Source of the DNA: a virus
DNA length: 64,000 bases
Strand: one strand, 5' to 3'
Virus record (IMG/VR): IMGVR_UViG_3300031963_000026
Location: 62,001-126,000 of that record
Shown piece after piece: positions 12,965-62,182 of the stretch. The notes below the pieces were generated by a model. The model was not told the DNA's origin. It saw only the letters and a list, made by a program, of their open reading frames with translations, and searched no databases. Position 1 is the first letter of the stretch. The number at the start of each line of letters is the position of its first letter. Made by a program: the position numbers and the translations under genes.

Positions 12965-15106
12965 TTATGTTAAACAATTTATATCGAAATCAATTATTAA
13001 ATTGATAACTAAATCTTTATTAAAATAAGTATCAACACCCGAAGAACTTGTAACAACTATTTGTCCTGTATTTTGATCAACATTAACCGAAGCAATATCA
13101 GGAAAACCATCTAACAGATTTGAAACAGTATCATACCATAGAGTATCCGAAGGAACTTGTGAAAGTGTATATCCCGTATAAAACGTAGAACTTGATGATG
13201 TTGTACCTGCACTTATTTCCGCAGTAAATACCGATGAATTAAATACACAATAAGTATTTCCCGATGTTAAAGCACTATACGCTTCATACACCATACTTAA
13301 CATATCTCTTTTTTGTCCAACCTGTACTATCATGTCGGAATCACACACACTATATGTTTGGAATGACGCTCTTAAAACACTACAAGAAACATCAGTAGAT
13401 CTTGTTAAGGTACATCCATTAGAACCCGAAACTGTTAAGGTGTATGTCCCTGCAGTTAATCCTGTGGCAACTAATCCACCCGTAGTTGTTCCCGAAACAT
13501 TTGATGACCATGTATATGTAAATGGTGGTAACCCTTGCGTAATTAACGCAGTAACCGTTCCACCACTTCCGGTGTCACCACAAGTTTGAGAATATAATGT
13601 AAAATTCAATCCCGAATCACTACCAATTGTAAATCCCGATGAAATAGTACAACCTGTACTATCAGTAACAGAAATAGTATAATTACCCGACACTAAATTA
13701 CTAAAGGTTGTTGATGATAATGAGGTTCCCAATAAACTTTGTCCGTTACTTAAAACATAATTAAATGGTGCCAAACCTCCCGATGTTTTTTCAACATAAA
13801 CTTGTCCAACACCACTATTACACGTATCACCCGTTGCACTAACATTTATACCGAATGAAACATTATTACTAATTGTTGTTGTTCCCGTATAACCACAAGA
13901 ACTATTATCGTTAAAAATTATTGTATATGTTCCCGATGTTAAATCTTCAAAAGTATATTGTGTGGAATTAGTAACTTGTGATAAAATAGTGATCCCACTT
14001 AATTTTAATGTATATGTGTAAGCAGGACTTCCTCCATCCACACTAACCTTTATTGACCCATCACTAGCACCACAGTTAGAGTTAGTTGGAACAATACTTA
14101 CAGAACTAATTGACCCAGGTGAAACCAATGTGGTTGATAATGTGGCAACACATAATCCCGCATCTGTGATATTAACACTAAAGGTTCCGGGACTCAAAGC
14201 CGAAAATGATAAACTTGTCGCAGTAGTGGATGATATTGTTCCATTACTAGCCGAAAATTGATATGGTGCAGATCCTCCCGATATTGTCAATGTTGCCTGA
14301 CCATTAGATTGTAAGCAAGTTGGTTGGATTATTGAACTAAACACACCACCAACAACACTTACGGTTCCTACGGTAGCGTCCTGTGTTAATGAACACCCAC
14401 TACCATCCGTAACGGTTACAGAATAAGTTCCCGCTGATAATCCTGTTCTTGTGGATCCCGTAGATCCATTATCTTCCCAAAGATAAGTGAAGGGTTCCGT
14501 ACCTGTCTCACCAGTTATAGAAATCGTTCCTGTTGATGTAATACATTGAGAACTATCCGTTATTACAAATCCGTAAGAAATACTCGGACTATCTTCTATG
14601 ATACACGTTTCTGTGGTTGCAGTACAACCCGCACTCCAACCCGACACATAATAAATCCCTGTCCCTAAATTAGTAAATGTGTATGTTGAATTATCCGTTG
14701 TTTTGGAATCAAAAACCGCACTCCCTTTATATAAAACAAAATCAACATCCGAGATATTTGTTGTTGCTGTAACCGTTAATATACCATTCGCTTCACCACA
14801 TGTAGAAGCACTAACCGTACTAAACGATAAACAAAGTCCCGAAGATATATTAACATTAATATCTAAGAATTGATTTGTGGGACTTTGAGCATCCGTGGCT
14901 CTAACATAATATGTTCCTGCCGATAAACCCGTTCTTAATGAAGAATTTAACGGTGAAAATGGAACGGTATATTGACTATCGTAATACCAATTAAACGTAA
15001 ATGGTGGAACCCCCGAACCGGGAACCACATTTATTTTTGCCGCACCGAAATTAGTATTACTACAATCACCCGTTACGCTTAAATAATAATTAAAATTTGC
15101 ACTCAT
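12965..15106 (-). CDS. seven-repeat SprB-like adhesin
   Basis: A 713-residue protein made of about seven consecutive SprB-type repeats of about 80 residues, followed by a 140-residue C-terminal domain. Each repeat has an initial Cys (for example SQCITSTG, SNCGASDG, DTCNSGVG), a G.PPFTY.W or APY.F strand, a TGLSAGTYSVTVTD-like turn and a second Cys (GSGCSL). In Flavobacterium, SprB is the cell-surface gliding adhesin. The C-terminus ends in a strand like that of the next gene upstream (IDFDINC versus IDFSIFC). Its first base overlaps the stop codon of the 979-residue gene. Probably displayed at the tail tip or fibre. Confidence 0.72.
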   Translation of the reverse strand: MSANFNYYLSVTGDCSNTNFGAAKINVVPGSGVPPFTFNWYYDSQYTVPFSPLNSSLRTGLSAGTYYVRATDAQSPTNQFLDINVNISSGLCLSFSTVSASTCGEANGILTVTATTNISDVDFVLYKGSAVFDSKTTDNSTYTFTNLGTGIYYVSGWSAGCTATTETCIIEDSPSISYGFVITDSSQCITSTGTISITGETGTEPFTYLWEDNGSTGSTRTGLSAGTYSVTVTDGSGCSLTQDATVGTVSVVGGVFSSIIQPTCLQSNGQATLTISGGSAPYQFSASNGTISSTTATSLSFSALSPGTFSVNITDAGLCVATLSTTLVSPGSISSVSIVPTNSNCGASDGSIKVSVDGGSPAYTYTLKLSGITILSQVTNSTQYTFEDLTSGTYTIIFNDNSSCGYTGTTTISNNVSFGINVSATGDTCNSGVGQVYVEKTSGGLAPFNYVLSNGQSLLGTSLSSTTFSNLVSGNYTISVTDSTGCTISSGFTIGSDSGLNFTLYSQTCGDTGSGGTVTALITQGLPPFTYTWSSNVSGTTTGGLVATGLTAGTYTLTVSGSNGCTLTRSTDVSCSVLRASFQTYSVCDSDMIVQVGQKRDMLSMVYEAYSALTSGNTYCVFNSSVFTAEISAGTTSSSSTFYTGYTLSQVPSDTLWYDTVSNLLDGFPDIASVNVDQNTGQIVVTSSSGVDTYFNKDLVINLIIDFDINCLT

Positions 15107-44318: not shown

Positions 44319-44631
44319 AATAGAAGAAGTAATTATTCAATGCCGCGTTATAATCTTGTAGTGTCGCCACCAATGGAAATGGAACGTTTATTGTCGTACC
44401 ATCGGGTATTGACCATTCTAAACCACCAAATTGTGGATTTGCTTGTAATATTAACCAACCAAAAAAAGGTGTGCCATAATATTCCTGTGATATCTTATCC
44501 ATTCTACTTCTTCCTACACGATAAATGTATCTTTGATCCGAGTTTTTAGGTCTCAAAGGAACAAATGGGACAACGGTTTGACCACCATTTACTTCAAAAT
44601 CCACATATCTATTATAATATTGATAACTCAT
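44308..44631 (-). CDS. gp53-like baseplate wedge protein (LysM-like)
   Basis: A 107-residue protein. YIYRVGRSRMDKISQEYYGT, WLILQANPQFGG and IPDGTTINVPFP form a LysM-like pattern as in T4 gp53 (196 residues), which connects adjacent baseplate wedges. Here the protein is nearly only that domain. Overlaps of 4 nt with the upstream gene and 11 nt with the downstream gene indicate coupled translation of the baseplate set. Confidence 0.75.
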   Translation of the reverse strand: MSYQYYNRYVDFEVNGGQTVVPFVPLRPKNSDQRYIYRVGRSRMDKISQEYYGTPFFGWLILQANPQFGGLEWSIPDGTTINVPFPLVATLQDYNAALNNYFFYYGR

Positions 44632-47600
44632 AGTTTAAACTTCTTTTTAAGATTGTAAGGATTATCAGTATCGGCATCATTATTAGAATTAAACAATTTA
44701 CTCAATCTTGTTTTATCATCACTACTTGGTGTAAAATCAGTCGTATATGAACAAGTCCTATCAACACCAACGTTTATACCAACAACATTTAGAATGTCTT
44801 TATTAATTGTGTTTTTATTATCATCAACAATACTTAATTCCGTATTATAAGCACTTTCAAAGACCGACTTCACCTTACCAAATTCATCATTTATTATTGT
44901 AAGTGAAATAGGATCTGTGATACCGTTAGTGATTGCACTCATAAAATTAGTATAATCATTAATATAAACACCACTCATTAACATATATTCTAACTTAGAT
45001 TCCGGAGTTGTAAACCCAAATTTAGTAACAGGGAATATTTCAGAGTCAAATTTGAAGCTTTGAGTCACATAAGGTGGGTAATCCCCATCAGTTAAAGTAG
45101 TTATAAATTGATTACAATAGGTTCCTATTGTTGTTAAGTCAGTAGTCATTACCGAAAGAGTTGAACCCGTTATTTTATATAACTTCGGTTCTCCCTTTTC
45201 AATGAAACCATCTCTTTCAGTTAATACATAATTCAATTTATCTATTGTAAATACATAGTCTTGTTCTAACGTATTCAATGATTGAATTGATGTGGTAAGT
45301 TTAGTTAAAAACGTAGGTGCATATCCACTAACATAGTTTATGTAGTTCTGTTTCAAATCTCTAACTACACTATTTTTAACATTTCTGTTTTGTTCTAATG
45401 TGGATATTTGAGATAATGATCCATTATTGATTTTACTTTGTAATTGTGAGAAGAAAGAAACATACCTGGATTGAATATTTACAGGTGATCCAAATAGATT
45501 AACATCTTGTGGTGACGTATATTGATTGAACTTACCTGTGTTATATTTTAGAACATTCGTAACGTTTTGTAATACCCCATAATTATAATTCTTAAGTGTA
45601 TCGTTTAAGAAATTATACACACCATTATAATAATTTTTAGACTGTGTAACAAACCCATCAAACACTTTAGTATATGATATATTACCATAAACCACGGTAG
45701 ATGTTCCCGACGTTGCCGCAGAGGTTGTAGTACTCTTAATTTCACCAATTGTTGCACCACCAAGTGATGTGGAAACCGGAGTTGCTTGTGAAACCGATGT
45801 GGTTGTCTCAGTTTCAGTTAAACCTAATGCACCAATAAATTGTTGATTGAATTGTTCTCTATCTTCCGTTTTTTCAGCTCTTTCATCATACATCTCAGTA
45901 TTTGCATAATAATTAAACGATAATGCGTTTTGTAATTTTTCAATTGGTTCTTTAAGTCCCGAACCACCAATAAAGTTAAAACTTAACGTAACATCACAAA
46001 TCATCGGTTGCATACCAATACCTTCGGGATTCAAATCAAAATTTTCAAATTTGAAACTTAAGTTTGTTGGAATAATTTTAGTATTATAGAAATCACCAAT
46101 TCTTAGCACCAACACAGGTGGGGCACCAAACGCGGTGTTTGTTGCAACATCCGTTACAGGTTTTCCATCCAAACCTATTGTTGGTATCGTATCACCCGGT
46201 CTTACACATTGATTTAAGAATGTCAATCTTGAATTTAATCCTTCAGGTGTCATTGAGTGAAACGTTGGATTAAAATATTTGATCTTGTCTTTGATTGAAT
46301 CAAAAACAACAGGATCAGTACTTTTCAATATATCAAAATAGTTACACTCAGATAATAAAGATCTAACAATTCTCTTACTAACATCATTTTTAATTTTTTG
46401 TTGTATGGTTGTAGTCGTTACAGGTTTTGGTGCTTCCAATGGTAATTGTCCTGTTGTTTGTTCTTGCTTAGGTGGTACCGCACTTATTTGTGGTGGTGGA
46501 GGTGCTTGAGGAATATCACCGGGAACATATTTAATATCCTTAATTGCAACTCTTCTACAAGCAGATGCTTGAACGGAAAATATCTTATTGTATGGTATAT
46601 TTTTAGTATCTAAGTCAGTACAATTATAACCCTGTGATTTAGTCCCTTTATTGAAACTATATAGTGTAGCACTTGATTCTTGCTCACCTCTCGCAGAACC
46701 CGAATCAATTTTCAATCTTCCCGAATCTATGTATGAACCCAAAACATTTTGGAAATAATCTTTAACACTATCAATTCTTCTTTTTGACAAATCAACGTTG
46801 TAACTTATTGTTGCAGGTGCGGACGCAGAACCAATTAAAGTAATTGTTATACTTTTAGCAGTCCCGTCATCCAAAACTTTCTTTATCTCGGGAACCAATT
46901 TATTACCAACAGTTGTGAAGTTATCAATAACAATATCATCAAAGAAATTTTGCATCTCAGTTTGTGTATTATTTCTTGAAGCAACTTCAATGAAGGTTGT
47001 TTCCTTACTTAATAAGAAATTATATTCAACATCATAAGCACTCGTTGTTTGAGTTAATCTCGTATTTGGATCGGGATAATCGTTGTAAAAATAAAAACCT
47101 AAGTTTTTAAACTTATCCCAATTTAATTCAGATGGTTTGGTTTGTTGAGGAATAATTGGTGCCGGTTGTGATTGATTAATCGGTTGTGTAGATTCCTGTG
47201 TTGCAGGATTTTGTGGTGTTGTTGTATTAACAATTGATTGAAAATATACCAAATCCGATGCCGGTATGGTATTATATGTTTGAGCCAATTCATACAAATC
47301 ATATTCTTTACAACCCGCGAAGAAAGAATCAACGATATTATCAGCAGTTTCTCTATCAGTATTCGCCAAAACCTTATTAACAATAAGATTTAATATAGAT
47401 GGGTGATCCACCACAATCTTAAATGATAATTGACCCGATCTTGATGTGTTTTTATAAGTATAAACAGGTTCAGGTCGTCCAATAAATGTATTTTCATTAA
47501 ACGACGGTCTTGAATCCTCACTAAATGTTAAACCATAAGGTGGGAACCACATTATTCTACCCCCATTAGGACCTCTCTCACAAGCAGGAAGGTCCGACAC

Positions 47601-49439
47601 TCTAAAACCTTCTTTATTTGACGTTCTCCAAGCCAAGTTTTCAATACTAAACATGTATTTGGTAACGTTTTTCTCAACTGCAGTTGGATTAACGTTGTTA
47701 CTTGTCGGAACAATATTCAAATTATATGTTGAAGTTATTACAGAATTAACAAATTGATAGATACTACCTTTTTGTTTCTGTAAATTTTCATAATTAATAT
47801 ATGGTTTGTCCTTAGCAAACACCCTACAATATTCTCTACCCGCTTCCGTTCCCGACGCATTAGTGTAAGATATCACCCTAGAACCCTTAGTTAATTCCTT
47901 ATACCCATCACTAAATACTTTAGATACTTGGTCAATTGCGTTACCAACGTGGTTAAGTCTCTTAGCACCATCGGGTTGTGAATCTATTAACCTTTGAGTA
48001 TCATCTAAAATACTACCCGGTCTAAATTCATAATTAGTTGATTTACCCGCATTGAATTTATCACTAATACTATTAAATGTTGGGTTATTTGTGGTATAAT
48101 CACCACCAGGTGCTACATTTTTACCCGCATTTTTACTATATTTCGGTGATACCCATGTGAACCCTCCTTGAATACCCCCCGCATCCTCATAAGATTTACC
48201 CGCAAAACCGTTTTGGATTTGTATATTATTTTCATAATTATTACCCAATACTTCAGGTCCATATACAGGAGCATTAACTTCTCTACCCGTTTCATCTTTT
48301 GGTATAGCACCCGGAGGTGATGTTAAAGATCCCGGATCTTGATCCTTTGAACCAACATAAAAGTTTCCTTTAGTTAAGTTTGATAAATTAAACGAAAATA
48401 TACCACCTACGGCATCATCACTAAACGCGGGTCTAAACTTGTTTTGTTCAATGTTAGATTGTAGTTGGAATTTTTGACCCGATCCTGTATTTTTTAAGAA
48501 TAAATCCGACGGTGTTCTACCTCTTGACCCTCTCGTTCCAAACGCCCCCGCAACCGCAGCACCAACAACCGTTTGTTGTGTTCTACCAAGGTTGTTCTGT
48601 GTCATATCCTCATCAAAATAATCACCCGGTATCGGTGATACAGGATAGTAAGTTCCTGCAATTCTGTTAAGAATATCCGCCATTTTACCAATAGCGTTTG
48701 ACGGAACAGTAATTGTCCAATCTTTTGATACTATAGGTCTTTTACCCGCCAAAACTTGAGCCACCTCAAATGGATCTCTAAGTGACTCTAAGAATGTAAG
48801 TCTTCCGATTGTTTCGGTTCTAACATTTTGATCAACCCTCGCCTTTAAATTAGCCTTTAACGCAACCCCAATATCAAACCTTCTTGGTTCAGAATCCAAA
48901 GATAATGTACCATCCGACCCTTGTGGATTACTTGAAAGTAAAACCGCATATGGTGAATATAATGAGGGTCTAAAACTAGGTGGACCCCAATACGGTGCCA
49001 AAACACCTTTAGACCTTTGTATTAAACCAATATTATACGGATTTTGAAAACCTCCGGGAGGTCCGTATTGGTTGATAATTGACGATGCTTTTTGATAGGA
49101 TATACTATAATTCTCAATAGCATCGATATATGGGGGAAATGGTCCATATTCCCCCTTATTAGGTCCCGAACTTACAACATTATTATAATTTATAGTTTTA
49201 TTAAAACCACCATTAGGACCAAATTCATTAATCTTATATAAATTATCAGAAAAAGGACTGTTATCTATTAAAACATCAGGAGAATCAATTACACTATAAT
49301 CCTGTAATTCGGTTGGGTATGTAACCGCACCACTTGGTGGTGTATATACGCCTGGTTTTCTGTAAGGTTTAAGATTCCTTACAATTAAACTTTTTCTAAT
49401 GATCTCGGTTGCATTAAACGATAACGGACTAGTTCCCAT
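44628..49439 (-). CDS. giant virion protein with OmpA-like domain
   Basis: A protein of 1603 residues starting at the ATG at 49439; an in-frame TTG lies one codon upstream. Residues about 770-960 have an OmpA C-terminal-like pattern: LGFYFYNDYPDPNT, SITITLIGSASAPATISYN then DLSKRRIDSVKDYF, a GE segment, and ACRRVAIKDI. OmpA-like domains bind peptidoglycan; the usual Asp in the G-x-x-D position appears to be replaced. The flanks are beta-rich and disordered virion sequence. It sits between the tape measure and gp53, so it may be a baseplate or hub component that grips the cell wall. Confidence 0.6.
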   Translation of the reverse strand: MGTSPLSFNATEIIRKSLIVRNLKPYRKPGVYTPPSGAVTYPTELQDYSVIDSPDVLIDNSPFSDNLYKINEFGPNGGFNKTINYNNVVSSGPNKGEYGPFPPYIDAIENYSISYQKASSIINQYGPPGGFQNPYNIGLIQRSKGVLAPYWGPPSFRPSLYSPYAVLLSSNPQGSDGTLSLDSEPRRFDIGVALKANLKARVDQNVRTETIGRLTFLESLRDPFEVAQVLAGKRPIVSKDWTITVPSNAIGKMADILNRIAGTYYPVSPIPGDYFDEDMTQNNLGRTQQTVVGAAVAGAFGTRGSRGRTPSDLFLKNTGSGQKFQLQSNIEQNKFRPAFSDDAVGGIFSFNLSNLTKGNFYVGSKDQDPGSLTSPPGAIPKDETGREVNAPVYGPEVLGNNYENNIQIQNGFAGKSYEDAGGIQGGFTWVSPKYSKNAGKNVAPGGDYTTNNPTFNSISDKFNAGKSTNYEFRPGSILDDTQRLIDSQPDGAKRLNHVGNAIDQVSKVFSDGYKELTKGSRVISYTNASGTEAGREYCRVFAKDKPYINYENLQKQKGSIYQFVNSVITSTYNLNIVPTSNNVNPTAVEKNVTKYMFSIENLAWRTSNKEGFRVSDLPACERGPNGGRIMWFPPYGLTFSEDSRPSFNENTFIGRPEPVYTYKNTSRSGQLSFKIVVDHPSILNLIVNKVLANTDRETADNIVDSFFAGCKEYDLYELAQTYNTIPASDLVYFQSIVNTTTPQNPATQESTQPINQSQPAPIIPQQTKPSELNWDKFKNLGFYFYNDYPDPNTRLTQTTSAYDVEYNFLLSKETTFIEVASRNNTQTEMQNFFDDIVIDNFTTVGNKLVPEIKKVLDDGTAKSITITLIGSASAPATISYNVDLSKRRIDSVKDYFQNVLGSYIDSGRLKIDSGSARGEQESSATLYSFNKGTKSQGYNCTDLDTKNIPYNKIFSVQASACRRVAIKDIKYVPGDIPQAPPPPQISAVPPKQEQTTGQLPLEAPKPVTTTTIQQKIKNDVSKRIVRSLLSECNYFDILKSTDPVVFDSIKDKIKYFNPTFHSMTPEGLNSRLTFLNQCVRPGDTIPTIGLDGKPVTDVATNTAFGAPPVLVLRIGDFYNTKIIPTNLSFKFENFDLNPEGIGMQPMICDVTLSFNFIGGSGLKEPIEKLQNALSFNYYANTEMYDERAEKTEDREQFNQQFIGALGLTETETTTSVSQATPVSTSLGGATIGEIKSTTTSAATSGTSTVVYGNISYTKVFDGFVTQSKNYYNGVYNFLNDTLKNYNYGVLQNVTNVLKYNTGKFNQYTSPQDVNLFGSPVNIQSRYVSFFSQLQSKINNGSLSQISTLEQNRNVKNSVVRDLKQNYINYVSGYAPTFLTKLTTSIQSLNTLEQDYVFTIDKLNYVLTERDGFIEKGEPKLYKITGSTLSVMTTDLTTIGTYCNQFITTLTDGDYPPYVTQSFKFDSEIFPVTKFGFTTPESKLEYMLMSGVYINDYTNFMSAITNGITDPISLTIINDEFGKVKSVFESAYNTELSIVDDNKNTINKDILNVVGINVGVDRTCSYTTDFTPSSDDKTRLSKLFNSNNDADTDNPYNLKKKFKL

Positions 49440-49456
49440 CAATAATTCATTTTAAT

Positions 49457-49480: not shown

Positions 49481-51220
49481 TTATTGACCCGGCGCGTTAT
49501 AAACATCAGGTTCTTTTAATACTGCTTTAACTGCGTTTGAAAATTGTAAATTTTTAGCATCTATTTGACCAACAACTCTATTATCTTGCATAATATCCAC
49601 CCTACCCGTTAATTGGACAGTAACGGGATCAACTCTAACAGTTTCCGGTTTCTTAGTTTCTTTAATACCTAATTGTTCTATAAGATCACTAACAATACTT
49701 CCAACCGCAGGAACAACAATATTTTCTTTAGAAATTTGTGTTTGAAATGTGGATGCAAAATCAATTGAGGATATTCTGTCAATACTTTTACTAAAGTTTT
49801 CAGAAAAATCAACAATAAAGTCGTTAAGAGTTGTTCCAAACTTATCGTTAAACCCTTCAAGGTCACCCTTAACTAAATCCTTTATTGCATCAACACCACC
49901 GGTTTCAAATCTATCTACTAATTGTCGTTGATCTCCGGGACGAAATGCCTGTCTAACACCTTCAGAAACAATTCTTTGACCTCCTCTTTGTATTTCAATA
50001 AGATCTTGGAACACTTTACTACTAGCAATCCCCGACACTCCGAAACCAACTTTAATCGCTGTCAAATTATTGTTCATCATTTGTTGTGTTGATAATTGTT
50101 CCGCAGCAAAATCCTCTAAGGTTTTGGCACTTGTTGTTTGTGCTTTTATCTTTTCTAAATCACCTTGTTGTAGTTGTGAAACCAATCTATCTTGACCATC
50201 AACTTTAACCGTAAAACCTCCTTTAATCTTATCAAAATTAGCAACACCCGACAAAAACATTTTTGTTTCTTCGTCAATTCCGGCAACTTTTAATTCTTTT
50301 GATACTTCATTAAGTTGAGCCCTTGCCTTAGCCATTTTAACCATGTTATCATAACTAAGTCCCGTTTCTTCGGAAATTTTCATTAAATCTCGTCTAGCAG
50401 CTGGAGGTATCTCAAATTTACCGGTTTCTTTATTCAAAAAACCCATTCTTTCAACCACACCACCAATAGCTTCTTGTAGTCCTTCAGTGTCTTCTTGTGC
50501 CAAATACATCAACCTAAACGGATCTGCTAAATCACCAACAGCAACCCCTAATCGTTGAAATGTATTTACCGCACTAATAGCACCTTCAGGGTCAAATACT
50601 TTTGACGCAAAATTAAATACGTCGGACATATCAATCTTTAGTAAAGCCGCTTTTGCCGCCATCCTTGCCAAACCATCAACACCCGTTTGAAATCCAAATT
50701 TATTAGCATTTGATAAATTATCACTAACTTGTTGAAATACTTGATTTGTATTTGCTCCGAATTTTCTAGCTTCAGATAATATGGTTAATGTGTTTTCACC
50801 AAAATTATTCATGGATTCACCAAAGTCAGCAAATTTTACAAAACTTTGTGTAATGGATTGAATACCTAAACCGGTTGCTGTCGCTGCCGCTTGGATCTCA
50901 ACCATATTTTTAGCACCAACAACAAAACTATATTCAAGTTCAGAGGCGATATTAGAAATTATGTCAGCCGCTTTTTGTGTTAAATTAGCAACATCGGTAC
51001 CTTGGTCAATAACCAAAGCCAAATCTTTAGATGCGTCGGCAATAGTTTTGGAAACCTCTCTATAAGTTTCCCTATTGGCAGTCATGTTCTTTTGAACGGA
51101 CAGAGATTGCTCATCAAGATTTTCACGAAATTCCTGCAGATTTGCAAAAAATTGTTTGGTAAGAATGTCGGCCAATCCTTGTCCATATTTATTTAAATCG
51201 TCAAAAATATTTTGTGCCAT
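49481..51220 (-). CDS. tail tape measure protein (gp29-like position and length)
   Basis: A 579-residue, strongly helical protein. The first 130 residues are coiled-coil-like (LQEFRENLDEQSLSVQKNMT). Ala/Gly-rich segments such as QAAATATGLGIQSITQSFVK and Phe-Gly motifs (KFGANTN, KFGFQTG) repeat at intervals in the 120-260 region, as in tape measures. T4 gp29 is 590 residues, so a tail of similar length is expected. It directly follows the tube and frameshifted chaperone genes, the conserved order tube-chaperone-tape measure. A TATTTAT motif lies 14 nt before the ATG. Confidence 0.75.
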   Translation of the reverse strand: MAQNIFDDLNKYGQGLADILTKQFFANLQEFRENLDEQSLSVQKNMTANRETYREVSKTIADASKDLALVIDQGTDVANLTQKAADIISNIASELEYSFVVGAKNMVEIQAAATATGLGIQSITQSFVKFADFGESMNNFGENTLTILSEARKFGANTNQVFQQVSDNLSNANKFGFQTGVDGLARMAAKAALLKIDMSDVFNFASKVFDPEGAISAVNTFQRLGVAVGDLADPFRLMYLAQEDTEGLQEAIGGVVERMGFLNKETGKFEIPPAARRDLMKISEETGLSYDNMVKMAKARAQLNEVSKELKVAGIDEETKMFLSGVANFDKIKGGFTVKVDGQDRLVSQLQQGDLEKIKAQTTSAKTLEDFAAEQLSTQQMMNNNLTAIKVGFGVSGIASSKVFQDLIEIQRGGQRIVSEGVRQAFRPGDQRQLVDRFETGGVDAIKDLVKGDLEGFNDKFGTTLNDFIVDFSENFSKSIDRISSIDFASTFQTQISKENIVVPAVGSIVSDLIEQLGIKETKKPETVRVDPVTVQLTGRVDIMQDNRVVGQIDAKNLQFSNAVKAVLKEPDVYNAPGQ

Positions 51221-51234
51221 AAACTTTATTTACA

Positions 51235-51241
51235 ATAAATA
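51235..51241 (-). promoter_or_regulatory. TATTTAT motif before tape measure
   Basis: Coding-strand ATATTTATT, 14 nt before the ATG at 51220; it overlaps the region just after the stop of the frameshift extension. Confidence 0.4.
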
Positions 51242-51245
51242 TTGA

Positions 51246-51431
51246 TTAGTTAGTTTTGGGTGTTAAATCCGTGACCAACTTGTTCATCAAATATTTCCTA
51301 AAATAAGTGGGCATACGATAAAAATCTCCATAAGAAACATGTAGATGCTTCGCCAAATAATAAAATTCGTCAGATAATACTCTGTTATAATCAGAAGAAA
51401 GGGCGAAAAAACTCTGCCCCAAAGGCGATAT
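51246..51431 (-). CDS. frameshift extension of the tail assembly chaperone
   Basis: An open frame of 61 codons in the +1 frame relative to the 247-residue gene, overlapping its last 41 bases and running to a stop at 51246. It has no ATG near its start. The peptide after the overlap includes DEFYYLAKHLHVSYGDFYRM and PTYFRKYLMNKLV, a helical pattern like the 'LA...h.s..e...mp..eR' C-terminal part of tail chaperones. If ribosomes shift +1 at TTT-TTT-C, the product is about 295 residues. The position between tube and tape measure matches lambda G-GT and P2 E-E'. Confidence 0.72.
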   Translation of the reverse strand: MSPLGQSFFALSSDYNRVLSDEFYYLAKHLHVSYGDFYRMPTYFRKYLMNKLVTDLTPKTN

Positions 51432-52134
51432 TCAAATCTACCTTTTTTCCGGATGGGGCGATAACTGTTTTCACAAGATCCAATCTTGGTTCATTTTCAT
51501 TAATGAATTTTTTAATGTATTTAGAATCCATAATAGGCATAGATTCAATAAACTTAATAATATTTTCAGGGCTAGTATCATCATTAATACTAATAATTGA
51601 CTTAGCCAATCTTGTAGTCACCGTAGGTGCTTTACCCACAGGATACATCGCATTCATTCTATCCAACTCTGTCATATCACCCAATGTCAATGGTTTTAAT
51701 TTTACCTTCACTTCACTTCTTGGTAAAGTTGTGGTCCATGTCCCATCCTCATTAGGTAATTGATTTGTTCGTTTAATATTTAACTCATCTAACATCACAT
51801 TACCCTTAAACTCATTACCAGTCTCGGGGTCAATTAATTTGAATGTGTATTCGGGACCAAACGATGTGTTCCTTAAAAAGATAAGAATAGCTTCAATATC
51901 ACCATTTAACAAATCTTCGGGTCTAATTCCCGGTTCATATAATTTTGATCTAATTAGTGTTGTTACTATGGAATCGGAAGGTGCCGACATAATTGTGTTT
52001 TCATCCGAAGCGGTCAAATATCCCACTTTCACAGATTCCTTTTTATTTTTATAAAAAATTCCTCTTGATGGTAAAGGCACCACATCATGTGGTAAATTAA
52101 AATCAATTTGTCCGTATTGTGTTGCGTCTTGCAT
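51391..52134 (-). CDS. tail assembly chaperone / gp26-like protein
   Basis: A 247-residue protein beginning MQDATQYGQIDFNLPHDVVP, with LPSRGIFY, ASDENTIMSAPSD, LIRSKL, GDIEAILIFLRNTSFG and LKPLTLGDMTELDRM. This resembles the T4 gp26 baseplate-hub family of T4-like phages and the N-terminal part of tail assembly chaperones. It lies between tube and tape measure, and a second frame opens at its end, so it is probably the short form of a frameshifted chaperone pair that folds the tape measure. Its ATG directly follows the T-run of a terminator and has no ribosome-binding site. Confidence 0.7.
   Translation of the reverse strand: MQDATQYGQIDFNLPHDVVPLPSRGIFYKNKKESVKVGYLTASDENTIMSAPSDSIVTTLIRSKLYEPGIRPEDLLNGDIEAILIFLRNTSFGPEYTFKLIDPETGNEFKGNVMLDELNIKRTNQLPNEDGTWTTTLPRSEVKVKLKPLTLGDMTELDRMNAMYPVGKAPTVTTRLAKSIISINDDTSPENIIKFIESMPIMDSKYIKKFINENEPRLDLVKTVIAPSGKKVDLNIAFGAEFFRPFF
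51405..51411 (-). promoter_or_regulatory. candidate +1 slippery site TTTTTTC
   Basis: In the chaperone frame this reads TTT TTT CGC. A +1 slip of tRNA-Phe from UUU to UUC would keep pairing and enter the extension frame. It lies 4 sense codons before the stop at 51391. Confidence 0.55.
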
Positions 52135-52139
52135 AAAAA

Positions 52140-52164
52140 AACCGTAGAGTTTGGCTCTACGGTT
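52140..52164 (-). terminator. intrinsic terminator fused to the chaperone start
   Basis: A 10-bp stem AACCGTAGAG/CTCTACGGTT with a 5-nt loop, followed on the minus strand by TTTTTTT and then immediately the ATG at 52134. It is 33 nt past the tube stop codon. Confidence 0.85.
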
Positions 52165-52196
52165 AAATATAGTGTAGTAATATTTTTAGTAAATAA

Positions 52197-52685
52197 TTAA
52201 TATACCAAGATACAACGATCCATACGTAATGAACAAGATAGAGTCGCTAACTTATCATCACTATATGATGCTTGTGACCAAGATACATCAGTCAAGAAAG
52301 TATTTTCAAGTATCCACTTTTCAACAACAACACCCGTTGGATCTAACATCTCTAAGTCAATGTTTTTCTTATAACCCGCAGCATAACCCATACGACCTGT
52401 TACAGATTCAGCGTGCAAACGAACCCACTCCATTAATGCCTGTGTTGCCGATGGCCCAATAGGATCCACAAAATCAACTTTAATCGGGTCCCAATTGAAT
52501 CTACCCGCAACGAATGTACTTGTATTTAAGAACGGTATTTCTGTACTACCTATTTTTATTGCCGGTCTTCCCGAACTCTGAACATACCATTCGTTAATAC
52601 CCAATGAAGAAGGGAATCTTAATATAAATCGGTTATTCCTTTTGGGTTCATAAGGAATAGGCATTTTCATTAACAAATCAGCCAT
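52197..52685 (-). CDS. tail tube protein gp19-like
   Basis: A 162-residue protein (T4 gp19 is 163) with the family pattern: KRNNRFILRFPSSLGINEWY, ARPxxKxGS-type segment (GRPAIKIGSTEIPF), FNWDPIKVDFVDPIGPSA, and WILENTFLTDVSWSQASYSD with a final beta strand. It polymerises into the inner tail tube. A TATTTAT motif lies 33 nt upstream with an A-rich leader, and a strong terminator follows, giving a short abundant transcript. Confidence 0.92.
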   Translation of the reverse strand: MADLLMKMPIPYEPKRNNRFILRFPSSLGINEWYVQSSGRPAIKIGSTEIPFLNTSTFVAGRFNWDPIKVDFVDPIGPSATQALMEWVRLHAESVTGRMGYAAGYKKNIDLEMLDPTGVVVEKWILENTFLTDVSWSQASYSDDKLATLSCSLRMDRCILVY

Positions 52686-52718
52686 ATCTTTAAATTTTAA
52701 TCTTTTTTAGTTTTATAT

Positions 52719-52725
52719 ATAAATA
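52719..52725 (-). promoter_or_regulatory. TATTTAT motif before tube gene
   Basis: Coding-strand GAGTATTTATATA context, 33 nt before the ATG at 52685. Confidence 0.45.
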
Positions 52726-52777
52726 CTCGTCAAAAAGTTTTTCTATTTACTTTTTTTTTTGACAAACTATTCTCATA

Positions 52778-53638
52778 TTAATATTTCTTTTTTATACCTC
52801 CGGTCGTTGAATAAGTTGTTAAATCAACTCCTTCGGGTTTATTTTTTTCAAAATGAGTTTTCATTTTTTCAACGTTTCTAATATCATCATCTGAAAATCC
52901 AATCATAGGTATGAACTTATTAGCAATCTTTTCTTTCATGAAAGCTCTTTTATGAATTTTCTTAGCAATTTTTTTAACGTGATCAATAAAATCATTCATA
53001 GCATCAATTTTACCCTCTTCGGGGTTTGAAGCACTTCCCGAACCATAACTAACTGGTGAAAATTGACACATATCTAAATATTCACGAATAATTTCATCAT
53101 CCGACATATCTTCCATATCATCAATAGATCTGTAATTTCTTAGATTTTTAATCAAAAGTTTTTTATTAATACCATTGTGATTTGATACTATCATATTATA
53201 TACCGATTCTTTCAGAGTATCGGGTTTGTGACCTCTAGCCGTTATAATAGCAAACACCGAACCACCATTAATCGCTTCAATAAAATCATCCCAAGCCGGA
53301 CCAGTATCGGCAACCATTGAATCAATCAAAAAATCCTTATCACCTTCAGTTCTAAAGTTTCTAAATGGGTCATCTGCAAATCCTACAATAGTTCTACCTT
53401 TATATTTAAAGGGTTCTTTACCAATCTCTGTTCGGTACTCAGCAAAATCCTCCGTTCCCATAGGTACTTCATCCCCATCCTCATCTTCTAACATGATTTT
53501 GGTCGGCATATAAAGTAAATTATCATCCCAATCAAAAGCATAATACTTCATGTCAGGAGTTCCTTTGTCACCAATCCCCTCGTTAATGTATGAGGGAATT
53601 AGTGATTTTAGGATTCTATTTTTTAATAGATCTTTCAT
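52778..53638 (-). CDS. HAD-superfamily phosphatase-like protein
   Basis: A 286-residue protein with HAD motifs: AFDWDDNLL (catalytic Asp36 and Asp38), IITARGH near residue 150 (motif II Thr), a Lys-rich segment, and MIGFSDDDIRN near residue 256 (motif III/IV acidic residues). The first 30 residues form a helical extension. It sits between the sheath and tube genes, which are adjacent in T4. The substrate is unknown; nucleotide 3'- or 5'-phosphatase activity is one possibility. Confidence 0.75.
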   Translation of the reverse strand: MKDLLKNRILKSLIPSYINEGIGDKGTPDMKYYAFDWDDNLLYMPTKIMLEDEDGDEVPMGTEDFAEYRTEIGKEPFKYKGRTIVGFADDPFRNFRTEGDKDFLIDSMVADTGPAWDDFIEAINGGSVFAIITARGHKPDTLKESVYNMIVSNHNGINKKLLIKNLRNYRSIDDMEDMSDDEIIREYLDMCQFSPVSYGSGSASNPEEGKIDAMNDFIDHVKKIAKKIHKRAFMKEKIANKFIPMIGFSDDDIRNVEKMKTHFEKNKPEGVDLTTYSTTGGIKKKY

Positions 53639-53641
53639 TTA

Positions 53642-56600
53642 TTAGATATTTTCAAAAGACGCACCTGTTGGTGTAATTAAGAACTCGATATCAATGAATT
53701 CCAAAGATTTAGTTGGTTTAATATAAACTTTACCCACCAATTGGTTTCTATCCAAATCTTCGGGTGAAGAACTTACCGTAACTCTGAAATCATATAGACC
53801 TCTATCTCTTCTAATTGAATCCAAAATAGGATTAACCGCATCTAAGAAATCTTGTCTAACTTTCTCATCGTTTTGTTCAAACAACAATCTAACCGCAACC
53901 GCTGAAATTAATTTACGAGCTTGTAACAACAATCTTCTAACATTTAATCTGTCAAGTGCTGATTGTGCAACTTGTAGTGTTTTATTACCCCAAATTACAG
54001 TTCCAACATCTGAGAAAGTTGCGATAGGATTAATTCTTCCTTGATACAATGTATCTCTATCTGTTTGAGTTAGTTTTCTTCTTGCTTTTACCGAATTAAC
54101 CAAACCTCTAGTATAACCCGCCGATGCGAACCAAGGGAAAGCTATATTATCGGTAAGTGCTAAGTTTCTACAAACCTCACCTGTTGGTGGAAGATAAATT
54201 TGTGTGTTATTAACAGTATCTCTAACTAAAATCCAAGGATAATAAGTTGATGTATAGTTAGAATCAATACCAGTATCATCCAAAGTATTAACAGCTTCAG
54301 TCGGATCAATGAAATCTTGTGAATCCACCGTTGAAACCAATAGGTCAATATCGGGAGTTGTTGTGATATAGATCGAATCCGCTCTATCTTGCTCAACCAT
54401 CTCAATTGCGTTTTCAACTAAGTTACTGTTATTTACATAATCAATACCCGGAGTTGCGAATACGTTAATATTAGTTGCTTCAGGATTTGCGAATGTTTGA
54501 ATACCAATTAAGTAAGCATAATAGTCAGTTGTTGCATAATCGGTAGTGTTATTACCATATGTATATGGTCTAAACGCACCCCAACCAGTTGCCGATGGAT
54601 ATCTTGTATCACAAGTAGATGAAACACCTTTCTGATATCCTGTACCACCTAAAATAAATTCATCACCATTAGATCTTCTTTCTCTATAAATGTCCCAACC
54701 ATCAAAACCACCTTGAACTAAGAATGTGAATTTACGTGATTGTATTTTATAATATGGATTAGCGGGATCTGTTGGGTCTGTTGTGAAACTTGTTGATCCA
54801 ACTTCAAATGCCGATGTTCCTGAAGATAGGTATGAATTTGCGATAGTTACTACCGTAGCACCACTATCCATGTGGAAACCTTTAGTTTGATAAGTCCAAC
54901 TTGATGCCTCATTACAAATACTTGTTGGGTTTTGTTTTCCTTTATATTGGAACAAATCGGAGTCAATACCCAATTGTGATGAAAATCCTAAGTAAGTAGT
55001 TCTAACTTTATCACCACTTGATGTTGTTGAATTATCTGCCGAACCTGTAGCATTTCCAAATGGTGGGTTGTAAATAACTTCACCAGGGAAATCATACTTA
55101 GTTTTATATACAGGTTGTGGTGGTGTGTTTGATGTTGAAGAATAGGTTCTTTCAATTAAACCTTCAAAACCACAAGGAATGGCATCTACAGGTGCATCAT
55201 AATTAAGCTCCAACATAATAAACTTAGAGTTTAATTGGTATTCACCATCAGAGGTACCAACTTTAACACCAATGTAACTATTTTGACTAGGATCCATTGT
55301 ACAGTTTGTGAATTTCTCCAAAATAACAGGATTTGTGTCCGTATCGTAAAAATCCCTAACAGCAATATCAAAAGTTAAATTATTGAACGACATATTCAAT
55401 ATTGAAACTTTAACTTGTGTATTAGCAGCATTACCATCTGAAATTGTAATTACTTTGAAAAGTTCATACACCTGATTACCTCGAAGTTCTGAAACCACCC
55501 AAGGAGAACTTGGTGTTTGGTAAGGATCTAAGAAATAAGCCATAGTTCCTGTTGTGTTAGCAGCTCTCAACCCCGGTAACTGAATTAAACTTGTGCTTAG
55601 TCCTCTAATGTAACCTTTATTATAACCAAAATTCAACAAGTTAGGATAAATTTCTTCTACGAAAAGAGGAACTACTGTTCTGTCTTTACCAAAATTATCT
55701 TTACCCAATACTTTACTCAAATAGTTAGTTCCTGTTTGTTGCATTGACGCAGTTAGTGTGAATGGTGTGGAATTTGAAGTTGTTAAACCTGAAATTTGGA
55801 ATTCTGTGTATGGATTTTTAGTTACACCGCTATTTACATCTACCAAATTAACATTTGATTGAGCACTTACAACAAAATCGGGTCCCGCAACTCCGGAACC
55901 GTAATTAGAAACACCTCTTGATCTCAATGTTGCAACCACCATATTATTATATGCTGAATATGCAGTACCTGACCAACCAAAAGTTTGTCCCGAAATCGTT
56001 CCCGTGTATGATGTGTAAGATCCAGCACTTAAACCTCCCGACAATGAACTTAAGAAAGTTACAAAAGAACGACCAACATACGCATTGCCCGAACTGATAT
56101 TAAACAATGAATAATACCAAGGATCATTTAAATAAGATGTGTAATCCTGAGATGATGCGTTTGTGTTATAAACACCTAAAACGTTTGTTGAAGCCGTGTA
56201 AGCACCTGATGTATATGTTGTGTTAGTTGCCGATGGTAAACTACCAAAAATATATGATGTTGCACCTGAATTAACTTGAACAACCGCAGCGGTATCATTA
56301 CCAAAAACCGTTAATAATAAATTTTGTAAATCTGTTGTAAATGTTGAAGTACTACCATCTATTTTAGTATATGACGCATTTACGTCTGTATATGCTGACA
56401 ATCCGTTTGTTAAAATATTTACAGTTCCCGTTGAGTTAGCACTAAATGTAACTGTGAATCCAACAGGTGTATTACCTGTAATACCAATTGTTGATGTATT
56501 TGGATTTGCAATCGTTTTGATAGTCCAAGATGGTCCTGCATCATATCCTGATAGACCTAATATTCTTGATACAAATAACTGATTTGATTGTTGTAAATAT

Positions 56601-56848
56601 GATTTTGCAATATATGCCATTTCATATTTAGGAATTTGTGTGTTCACAAATTTTTCTGTTGAAGTTCCACCGAAATATGTTTCATACTCATCAAAACTAG
56701 TGATAAAAATTGGTTCGAAAGCGGGACCTTTTAGTGCCTCACCAACCAAACCCAATGTTGTAACACCAACACTTTGAGCAACAAAACTTAAATCCCTTTC
56801 TGAGGTATAAACCCCAGGTGAAACGAATACCTTATTTGCTGTAGCCAT
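53642..56848 (-). CDS. tail sheath protein gp18-like
   Basis: A 1068-residue contractile sheath protein; T4 gp18 is 659. The N-terminus VFVSPGVYTSERDLSFVAQS with VTTLGLVGEALKGPAFEP is the classic sheath start. The C-terminal 200 residues include NLALTDNIAFPWFASAGYTRG, a LTQTDRDTLYQGRINPI segment and LIKP-type final strands (VGKVYIKPTKSLEFIDIEF), the conserved polymerisation domain. The extra 400 residues lie in the middle as surface-exposed beta domains. It starts the tube-sheath operon with a TATTTAT motif 29 nt upstream. Confidence 0.93.
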   Translation of the reverse strand: MATANKVFVSPGVYTSERDLSFVAQSVGVTTLGLVGEALKGPAFEPIFITSFDEYETYFGGTSTEKFVNTQIPKYEMAYIAKSYLQQSNQLFVSRILGLSGYDAGPSWTIKTIANPNTSTIGITGNTPVGFTVTFSANSTGTVNILTNGLSAYTDVNASYTKIDGSTSTFTTDLQNLLLTVFGNDTAAVVQVNSGATSYIFGSLPSATNTTYTSGAYTASTNVLGVYNTNASSQDYTSYLNDPWYYSLFNISSGNAYVGRSFVTFLSSLSGGLSAGSYTSYTGTISGQTFGWSGTAYSAYNNMVVATLRSRGVSNYGSGVAGPDFVVSAQSNVNLVDVNSGVTKNPYTEFQISGLTTSNSTPFTLTASMQQTGTNYLSKVLGKDNFGKDRTVVPLFVEEIYPNLLNFGYNKGYIRGLSTSLIQLPGLRAANTTGTMAYFLDPYQTPSSPWVVSELRGNQVYELFKVITISDGNAANTQVKVSILNMSFNNLTFDIAVRDFYDTDTNPVILEKFTNCTMDPSQNSYIGVKVGTSDGEYQLNSKFIMLELNYDAPVDAIPCGFEGLIERTYSSTSNTPPQPVYKTKYDFPGEVIYNPPFGNATGSADNSTTSSGDKVRTTYLGFSSQLGIDSDLFQYKGKQNPTSICNEASSWTYQTKGFHMDSGATVVTIANSYLSSGTSAFEVGSTSFTTDPTDPANPYYKIQSRKFTFLVQGGFDGWDIYRERRSNGDEFILGGTGYQKGVSSTCDTRYPSATGWGAFRPYTYGNNTTDYATTDYYAYLIGIQTFANPEATNINVFATPGIDYVNNSNLVENAIEMVEQDRADSIYITTTPDIDLLVSTVDSQDFIDPTEAVNTLDDTGIDSNYTSTYYPWILVRDTVNNTQIYLPPTGEVCRNLALTDNIAFPWFASAGYTRGLVNSVKARRKLTQTDRDTLYQGRINPIATFSDVGTVIWGNKTLQVAQSALDRLNVRRLLLQARKLISAVAVRLLFEQNDEKVRQDFLDAVNPILDSIRRDRGLYDFRVTVSSSPEDLDRNQLVGKVYIKPTKSLEFIDIEFLITPTGASFENI

Positions 56849-61891: not shown

Positions 61892-62182
61892 ATGAAAGTC
61901 AAGGTAACAGAAGAAAAGTTATATCCAGTTTTCAAAAAATTCATGGAAACTCAGTTTAAGAAATATGAATGGAGAAAAGATGAACTTGGGACTATTTGGT
62001 TTATGGATCCTGAAGGATTTGGTGATCTGGAATTGGGAGATAAAAATTTATGGGTTCATCGTGATATTAAAAATAAAATTCTTCGTTATCTTCCTATGGA
62101 AGAATCTATGTTAGACTCGCTTATATCTAGATGGGTTGGAGATACTTTTCAAATTGAGGGTATAAACATCCTCGAGATGTGA
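61892..62182 (+). CDS. tandem array protein, copy 5, shortened
   Basis: A 96-residue paralogue with TIWFMDPEGFGDLELGDKN and ILRYLPMEESMLDSLISRW. It ends at TGA (62180-62182); the remnant of the ancestral C-terminus (encoding GDTFPL-stop) is still readable about 25-50 nt downstream but in another frame. So the end decayed by a frameshift or small indel. Function unknown. Confidence 0.78.
   Translation: MKVKVTEEKLYPVFKKFMETQFKKYEWRKDELGTIWFMDPEGFGDLELGDKNLWVHRDIKNKILRYLPMEESMLDSLISRWVGDTFQIEGINILEM

Follow-up and report, generated by a model that had tools for sequence, protein, structure and literature searches.

The tail chaperones lambda G/GT and P2 E-E' each comprise two forms that share an N-terminus and are read from one gene by a frameshift near its 3' end, and both genes are placed just before the tape measure position. 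In lambda, many G and few GT proteins assemble on the tape measure protein, T binds the tube subunit, and neither protein is found in the virion, according to the cited portions of a review (PMC5009743) that call the frameshift widely conserved "except T4". The same portions describe +1 frameshifts in tailed viruses, namely in Listeria phages and in HSTV-2, the latter in the G-T counterpart of a myovirus. For T4, the cited portions of a tail review (PMC3004832) list gp26 and gp51 as hub assembly chaperones, describe gp51 as an essential protein without a known function that is not part of the particle, and give the mechanism of tube length determination as unknown. According to the excerpt used here of a 2010 comparison, the gp51 of cyanophages and marine vibriophages is missing its first ~200 residues, and Aeh1 alone has no gp51 (PMC3037559). 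A UUU_CGN class of +1 sites has been proposed from influenza PA-X (UCC_UUU_CGU) and candidates in other viruses of eukaryotes, with a P-site move from UUU to UUC and CGN in the A site; the cited excerpt leaves the role of the A-site codon at these sites uncertain (PMC3498833).

We analyzed a stretch of 64,000 nucleotides from the IMG/VR virus record IMGVR_UViG_3300031963_000026 (positions 62,001 to 126,000, hereafter the window), in which a gene of the T4 gp26 family carries an open +1 frame across its 3' end. Like lambda G/GT and P2 E-E', this gene would give two forms with a common N-terminus and lies just before a putative tape measure gene, but it belongs to PF12322, the family of T4 gp26, and its shift would be +1 rather than the -1 of lambda. 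T4 gp26 and gp51 are of the same family, with gp26 as the short form and gp51 carrying a C-terminal gp51-family domain; unlike the window, T4 has two paralogous genes on opposite strands and no overlapping extension. The site resembles that of PA-X in its probable P-site move and its A-site CGN, but it lies in a bacteriophage gene, has TTT in place of UCC and has an invariant GGG codon upstream. It shares its proposed +1 direction with HSTV-2 and the Listeria phages, whose sites differ from it (CCC_UGA in the Listeria tail genes; PMC5009743, cited portions). The "short gp51" of cyanophages resembles the extension in having the same C-terminal domain directly after gp26; where the excerpt of PMC3037559 reads a gp51 without its first ~200 residues, we read a probable frameshift extension of gp26. 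No earlier report of frameshifting in the gp26/gp51 family was found among the titles and abstract beginnings listed in searches of open-licence PubMed Central.

The gp26-type gene and its overlapping frame

The gene is part of a tail module on the minus strand, in the order sheath (53642-56848), a 286-residue gene (52778-53638), tail tube (gp19-like, 52197-52685; PHROG 4542, E 1.4e-20), gp26-type gene (51391-52134) and a 579-residue gene (49481-51220). As the earlier note on this DNA had stated, the gp26-type gene is a frame of 247 codons ending at 51391, with its TGA stop at 51393-51391. Its protein, the putative short, G-like form, matches PF12322 "T4_baseplate" (E 9.5e-12; 45.5 bits against a curated cut-off of 24.5) and PHROG 150 (E 8.9e-16), which places it in the T4 gp26 family. 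In the window's own 129 kb record, which may be incomplete, it is the only PF12322 match, and no second copy of the extension was found. The 579-residue gene is placed in the tape-measure position by its location only; it had no convincing family match in PHROGs or Pfam and no BLASTP match to the tape measure protein of phage immuto. The annotation of Listeria phage LIS04 gives the order tube, hub, tape measure. Among named phages, no DNA-level relatives of window positions 50001-53000 were found.

The end of the gp26-type gene reads TTT GGG GCA GAG TTT TTT CGC CCT TTC TTC TGA. The slippery run TTT-TTT-C lies where it had been placed in the overlap of the two frames, at 51405-51411 (six T at 51411-51406, then C at 51405), and occurs in frame once in the 30 other ORFs of the window. 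The proposed P-site codon is the second TTT (51408-51406), which would re-pair at TTC (51407-51405); the A-site codon is CGC (51403-51405), and the TGA is the fifth codon past the P-site TTT. Entered at the second TTT, the +1 frame begins TTC GCC CTT TCT TCT GAT and comprises 53 codons (51249-51407) up to a TAA at 51248-51246, leaving a gap of 25 bases before the next gene start. This frame had been described as open from 51431 and without an ATG. It is open, but ATGs stand at residues 32 and 41 of the 53, both too late for starting the domain (locus L313, whose junction is identical to the window's). When TTTC is read as one step, the fusion has 295 residues with the junction AEFF-ALSS, in agreement with the length of about 295 that had been proposed. 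The extension, a putative T-like domain, was modeled with AlphaFold2 (pLDDT 89) as helices at residues 2-22, 26-31 and 34-48. It matched no PHROG or Pfam profile, and the other members of its set, A3, gave scattered matches only (best E 0.012).

Other minus-strand proteins of the window were noted in passing. The 286-residue protein between sheath and tube (best PHROG E 0.013) has an N-terminal YAFDWDDNLLYMPTK stretch that we take to resemble a HAD-type phosphatase motif. The sheath has 1068 residues, of which the best sheath match covers 745-1066; a second matching stretch was also counted, and the protein may hold a large extra domain. A 1604-residue tail-module protein (44628-49442) has an OmpA-like segment (residues 849-922; E 5.4e-5, short of the curated cut-off), and a 713-residue protein (12965-15106) matches Hoc-like head decoration (PHROG 2973, E 2.5e-14). 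No tRNA genes were found in the window.

Conservation and anatomy of the proposed slip site

Relatives were gathered in searches whose loci overlap in part. A first protein search gave 21 loci; all 19 that include the gene end keep site and frame, in five lineages, with the partial loci L009 and L021 left out of the count. The exact junction pattern occurs in at least 120 stretches in viral contigs, and the 80 loci taken from these all have a gp26-type frame and an open +1 extension, three of them ending at contig ends; since the pattern itself fixes the site, this search is partly circular and its loci support only the extension beyond the site. The main sample was found by peptide patterns, one of which, [ED]FFRPFF, fixes the amino acids at the site and not the codons, and consists of the best 80 of 575 confirmed relatives. 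This sample and the two 80-locus samples described below (best of 436 and of 598) represent the closest relatives of each query. One of the 80 main-sample loci lacks the gene end. Across the samples, identical junctions were counted once and L330 and L306 were dropped for lack of a stop in the locus; the main sample gave 66 distinct junctions, one of them the window's.

Among the best 80 of 575, the arrangement GGG-NNN-GAN-TTT-TTT-CGN, and with it the TTTTTTC run and the +1 frame, is kept in 66/66 distinct junctions. The extension is 47 to 55 residues long in 64 of these, and the other two run off contig ends. Past the site, the 0 frame is variable (FFRPFF, FFRVFF, FFRAFF or FFRPFY), and 4 of the 55 FFRPFF junctions have no stop directly afterwards, which puts the 0-frame stop codon outside the signal. 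Selection on the extension was estimated over its codons 9 to 44 (245 pairs, 70-98% identical): pN/pS is 0.24, compared with 0.88 and 2.09 for the other two frames over nearly the same bases. Of the 53 complete extensions in the FFRPFF subset (best 80 of 575), 51 are free of ATG, GTG and TTG over codons 1 to 13. Together, the pN/pS values and the missing starts indicate that the extension is a selected protein that could hardly start on its own in the window clade. All 66 junctions thus show the arrangement of G/GT, in which a second, conserved coding frame overlaps the 3' end of the gene. A conserved, coding +1 extension is confirmed here as more than chance, and the programmed frameshift that the earlier note had proposed gains support from both the conserved site and selection at the protein level.

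The bases of the site match the UUU_CGN class, with UUU then C in the P site and CGN in the A site in 66/66 junctions (best 80 of 575); the Arg codon is CGG in 28, CGT in 21, CGC in 16 and CGA in 1. Because codon counts from gene bodies include near-identical loci and the Fisher tests ignore relatedness, the following comparisons with clade gp26 bodies are descriptive only: GGG makes up 9.8% of Gly codons in the bodies and 66/66 at the site, TTT 69% of Phe codons and 66/66 at both site positions, and CGG plus CGC 12/706 Arg codons and 44/66 at the site (best 80 of 575). In 30 ORFs of the window (17,811 codons), CGC occurs 3 times and CGG never, a count of the phage's own usage. The choice of Arg codon is constrained in part: a C has to follow TTT for a TTT_C site, and the resulting +1 codon, GNC, has to be one that the extension can use. 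The invariant GGG (51418-51420), by comparison, sits 5' of the slip, outside the reach of any coding demand from the extension, and starts nine bases 5' of the first TTT. With the next base it forms GGGG, a possible stimulator that lies eight bases 5' of the P-site codon and may act like an upstream Shine-Dalgarno stretch, although in prfB the Shine-Dalgarno-like stretch is three bases before the P-site codon. We found no conserved RNA structure around the site or downstream of it (for 28 sequences, -0.24 kcal/mol and not one pair with changes on both sides), and no Rfam match.

Related putative frameshift sites and the link to T4 gp51

A second +1 clade was found with A1, a profile of six distant gp26-type proteins that aligns with the window clade gp26 (hhalign 99.9%, E 5e-38), and the best 80 of 436 loci were kept. 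In these, the +1 extension is the longer one in 74 and the -1 extension in 3, while 3 are ended by the contig; L189 and L199, two of the loci with a longer -1 frame, also have TTT_TTT_TGG followed by a +1 extension, of 70 and 68 residues respectively. The extensions of the second clade and the window clade are homologous (hhalign 98.7%, E 4e-16). YTT_Y sites, that is, a Phe codon, TTT or CTT, then T or C, account for 77 of 78 distinct junctions (best 80 of 436). The commonest is TTT_TTT_TGG, and TTT_TTT_TAC, TTC_TTT_TGG, TTT_CTT_TGG, TTC_TTT_CGT and TTT_TTT_CCC also occur. A simple slip does not fit the junction of the exception, L178. This locus (positions 2132-2179) has TTC_TTC_TGG and a long extension in the -1 frame where other second-clade genes have +1, possibly a change of frameshift direction.

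In the collection of named phages, the +1 arrangement is present in SagM-GXN1, immuto, Mel-JY01, SP-15, LIS04 and the metagenome record LR756508. The site of LIS04, TTT_TTT_AGT, makes a UUU to UUC slip impossible. Small annotated "hypothetical protein" genes of Mel-JY01 (L026:3740-3976), SP-15 (L029:3740-3859) and immuto (L025:3872-3982) each correspond to a portion of the extension, read in the +1 frame of gp26. The long form is unannotated in the annotated relatives examined.

Genes of the cyanophage type have the extension in the -1 frame. With gp26 of S-SM2 as query and the best 80 of 598 kept, the gp26 end is present in 79 loci, all 79 with a -1 extension, and the standard -1 heptamer T_TTT_TTC is found in 77/77 distinct junctions. 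This is the T6C run of the window clade in another codon phase, so that each clade has as its main frame the one that serves the other as extension frame. The cyanophage-type extension has a pN/pS of 0.175. Nine further named phages have a -1 extension: it lies behind T_TTT_TTC in V05 and R10Z (Schizotequatrovirus), LPCS28 (Nanhuvirus), P19 (Ceceduovirus), ACP17, S-RIM8 and B23, and behind a single TTC in CBA120 and Vibrio phage D508. T_TTT_TTC is also present in Vibrio phage K567 and Aeh1, and -1 extensions were found in XacN1 (T_TTT_TTT) and LR756511 (T_TTT_TTC).

The link to T4 gp51, which the earlier note had missed, runs through this extension. PHROG 634 "baseplate hub assembly catalyst", the gp51 family, matches 22/22 cyanophage-type extensions (best E 9e-30), and T4 gp51 aligns with the cyanophage extension profile at its C-terminus (hhalign 35%, E 4e-4). 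Second-clade extensions matched PHROG 634 weakly in 6/45 (best E 0.0015) and PHROG 20255, of unknown function, in 9/45 (best E 0.002); T4 gp51 alone found no match in the second-clade profile (0.1%). The window-clade and cyanophage extensions have no direct match (0.1%) and are linked only via the second clade (98.7% and 88.9%). For the bodies, the window-clade profile found nothing in T4 gp26 alone, and the link between the two rests on PF12322 and PHROG 150.

Within T4, residues 1-201 of gp51 match PF12322 (E 3.9e-52), residues 147-246 match PHROG 634, and PHROG 150 aligns with almost the entire protein. T4 gp26 matches PF12322, and PHROG 150 only up to position 235 of 282. The two proteins share 20% identity over 161 columns in BLASTP (E 2e-6 for the pair). 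They are therefore paralogues, one short and one with an extra domain. Their genes are on opposite strands, and gp51 is encoded as a long form in frame, without an overlapping extension. At the end of T4 gene 26, gene 25 occupies the -1 frame, and the +1 frame soon meets a stop.

Competing explanations and the probable function of the two proposed forms

A start codon of its own for the extension would make it a separate small gene, translated by re-initiation or independently, with no frameshift. Annotators list it as such in several cyanophages and vibriophages, where it starts at an ATG shortly past the gp26 stop (S-SM2, B23) or overlapping that stop as TAATG (V05, R10Z), and the refuting case that the earlier note had named thus gave a mixed answer, though a favorable one; the extension there lies in the -1 frame behind T_TTT_TTC, invariant in 77/77 cyanophage-type junctions (best 80 of 598). 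The window-clade data count for the frameshift, with early start codons missing from the same 51/53 extensions, as does Aeh1, whose extension is unannotated, lies in the -1 frame behind T_TTT_TTC and has no Met in its first 20 residues (Met alone checked). The slip bases are moreover invariant although synonymous codons occur elsewhere, and we consider a separate gene very unlikely. The earlier note had also left the direction as +1 or -2. A -2 shift, in which tRNA-Phe would re-pair backwards from UUU to UUU, is formally allowed by the window's TTT_TTT_C and is known for phage Mu GT (PMC3498833, cited excerpt). It is excluded at TTC_TTT_CGT of phage GXN1 and at second-clade TTC_TTT_T (5), TTC_TTT_C (2) and TTT_CTT_T (4); because -2 re-pairing would mismatch in these 11/78 junctions (best 80 of 436), +1 is favored, and a rare A-site codon fits +1 as well. 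We consider a -2 shift very unlikely.

Slippage of RNA polymerase on the T run, producing mixed mRNAs, could in principle replace ribosomal frameshifting, given the six T of the window and seven in most second-clade sites (best 80 of 436). However, sites with three or four T (TTC_TTT_CGT, TTT_CTT_TGG, TTC_TTT_TGG) keep the extension, the direction of the shift depends on how the codons divide the T6C run that both share (+1 for the window clade, -1 for the cyanophage type), and the invariant GGG and the rare Arg codons would have no role, which makes polymerase slippage highly improbable. A different objection accepts the frameshift and takes its product to be a structural baseplate hub protein rather than a tail assembly chaperone. 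PHROG 150 and many database names read baseplate hub, and some T4 genetic work put gp26 in the hub, as the cited portions of PMC3004832 relate; those portions also list gp26 and gp51 as hub assembly chaperones and state that gp51 is not in the particle. In its position and in its scheme of a short and a long form, the gene is moreover like G/GT. We regard a hub protein as unlikely, though it is the alternative to which we give the most weight.

Our preferred reading, with a probability of roughly 0.86, is that the window encodes a gp26-family tail assembly chaperone in two forms, of 247 residues and, by a +1 slip, of 295 residues, and that T4 makes the same pair from genes 26 and 51. Most ribosomes would stop at the TGA and yield the short form. 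Some would stall while tRNA-Phe occupies UUU in the P site and the very rare Arg codon CGC stands in the A site, where the GGGG and the rare codon are the putative stimulators; the likely slip is that of the UUU_CGN class of influenza PA-X, tRNA-Phe re-pairing +1 from UUU to UUC, its better codon. Translation would then run on into the 53-residue helical domain. By analogy with lambda G/GT, which the two forms likely resemble in role, many short forms may cover the tape measure protein, with a few long forms bringing in tail tube subunits. T4 would encode the short form in gene 26 and the long one, in frame, in its paralogue, gene 51.

Structural comparison shows a weak similarity to a known chaperone fold. 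By sequence, no solved structure was found for the window gp26 or T4 gp51, and Foldseek with the gp26 model (pLDDT 85.5) returned nothing at E <= 0.001. When the model was realigned to 994 PDB chains preselected by Foldseek, 7 reached Z >= 2; the HK97 tail assembly chaperone 2ob9_B shared the top score (Z 5.3, rmsd 3.8, 89 residues), a match possibly due to chance by the tool's warning, with 3fgx_A (Z 5.3) and 5ir0_B (Z 4.6) as the other top chains.

The short cyanophage gp51 and the gap in Aeh1 would then have one answer, namely a domain reached by frameshift from gp26. In T4, gene duplication appears to have taken the place of frameshifting, which would account for both the T4 "exception" and the truncated look of cyanophage gp51. 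We think it rather probable that the frameshifted gene is ancestral in T4-type chaperones across very distant myoviruses, its direction switching between +1 and -1 at one and the same pair of Phe codons; that T4 and its close kin escaped by duplication into 26 (short) and 51 (long); and that gp51, the "hub assembly catalyst", is a GT protein setting up tube growth on gp29. The T4 "exception" would fall, as many T4 relatives appear to frameshift and T4 has the duplicated pair. The locus and its relatives also add a large bacteriophage set of UUU_CGN +1 sites, and they may offer a natural example of gene duplication taking over from frameshifting.
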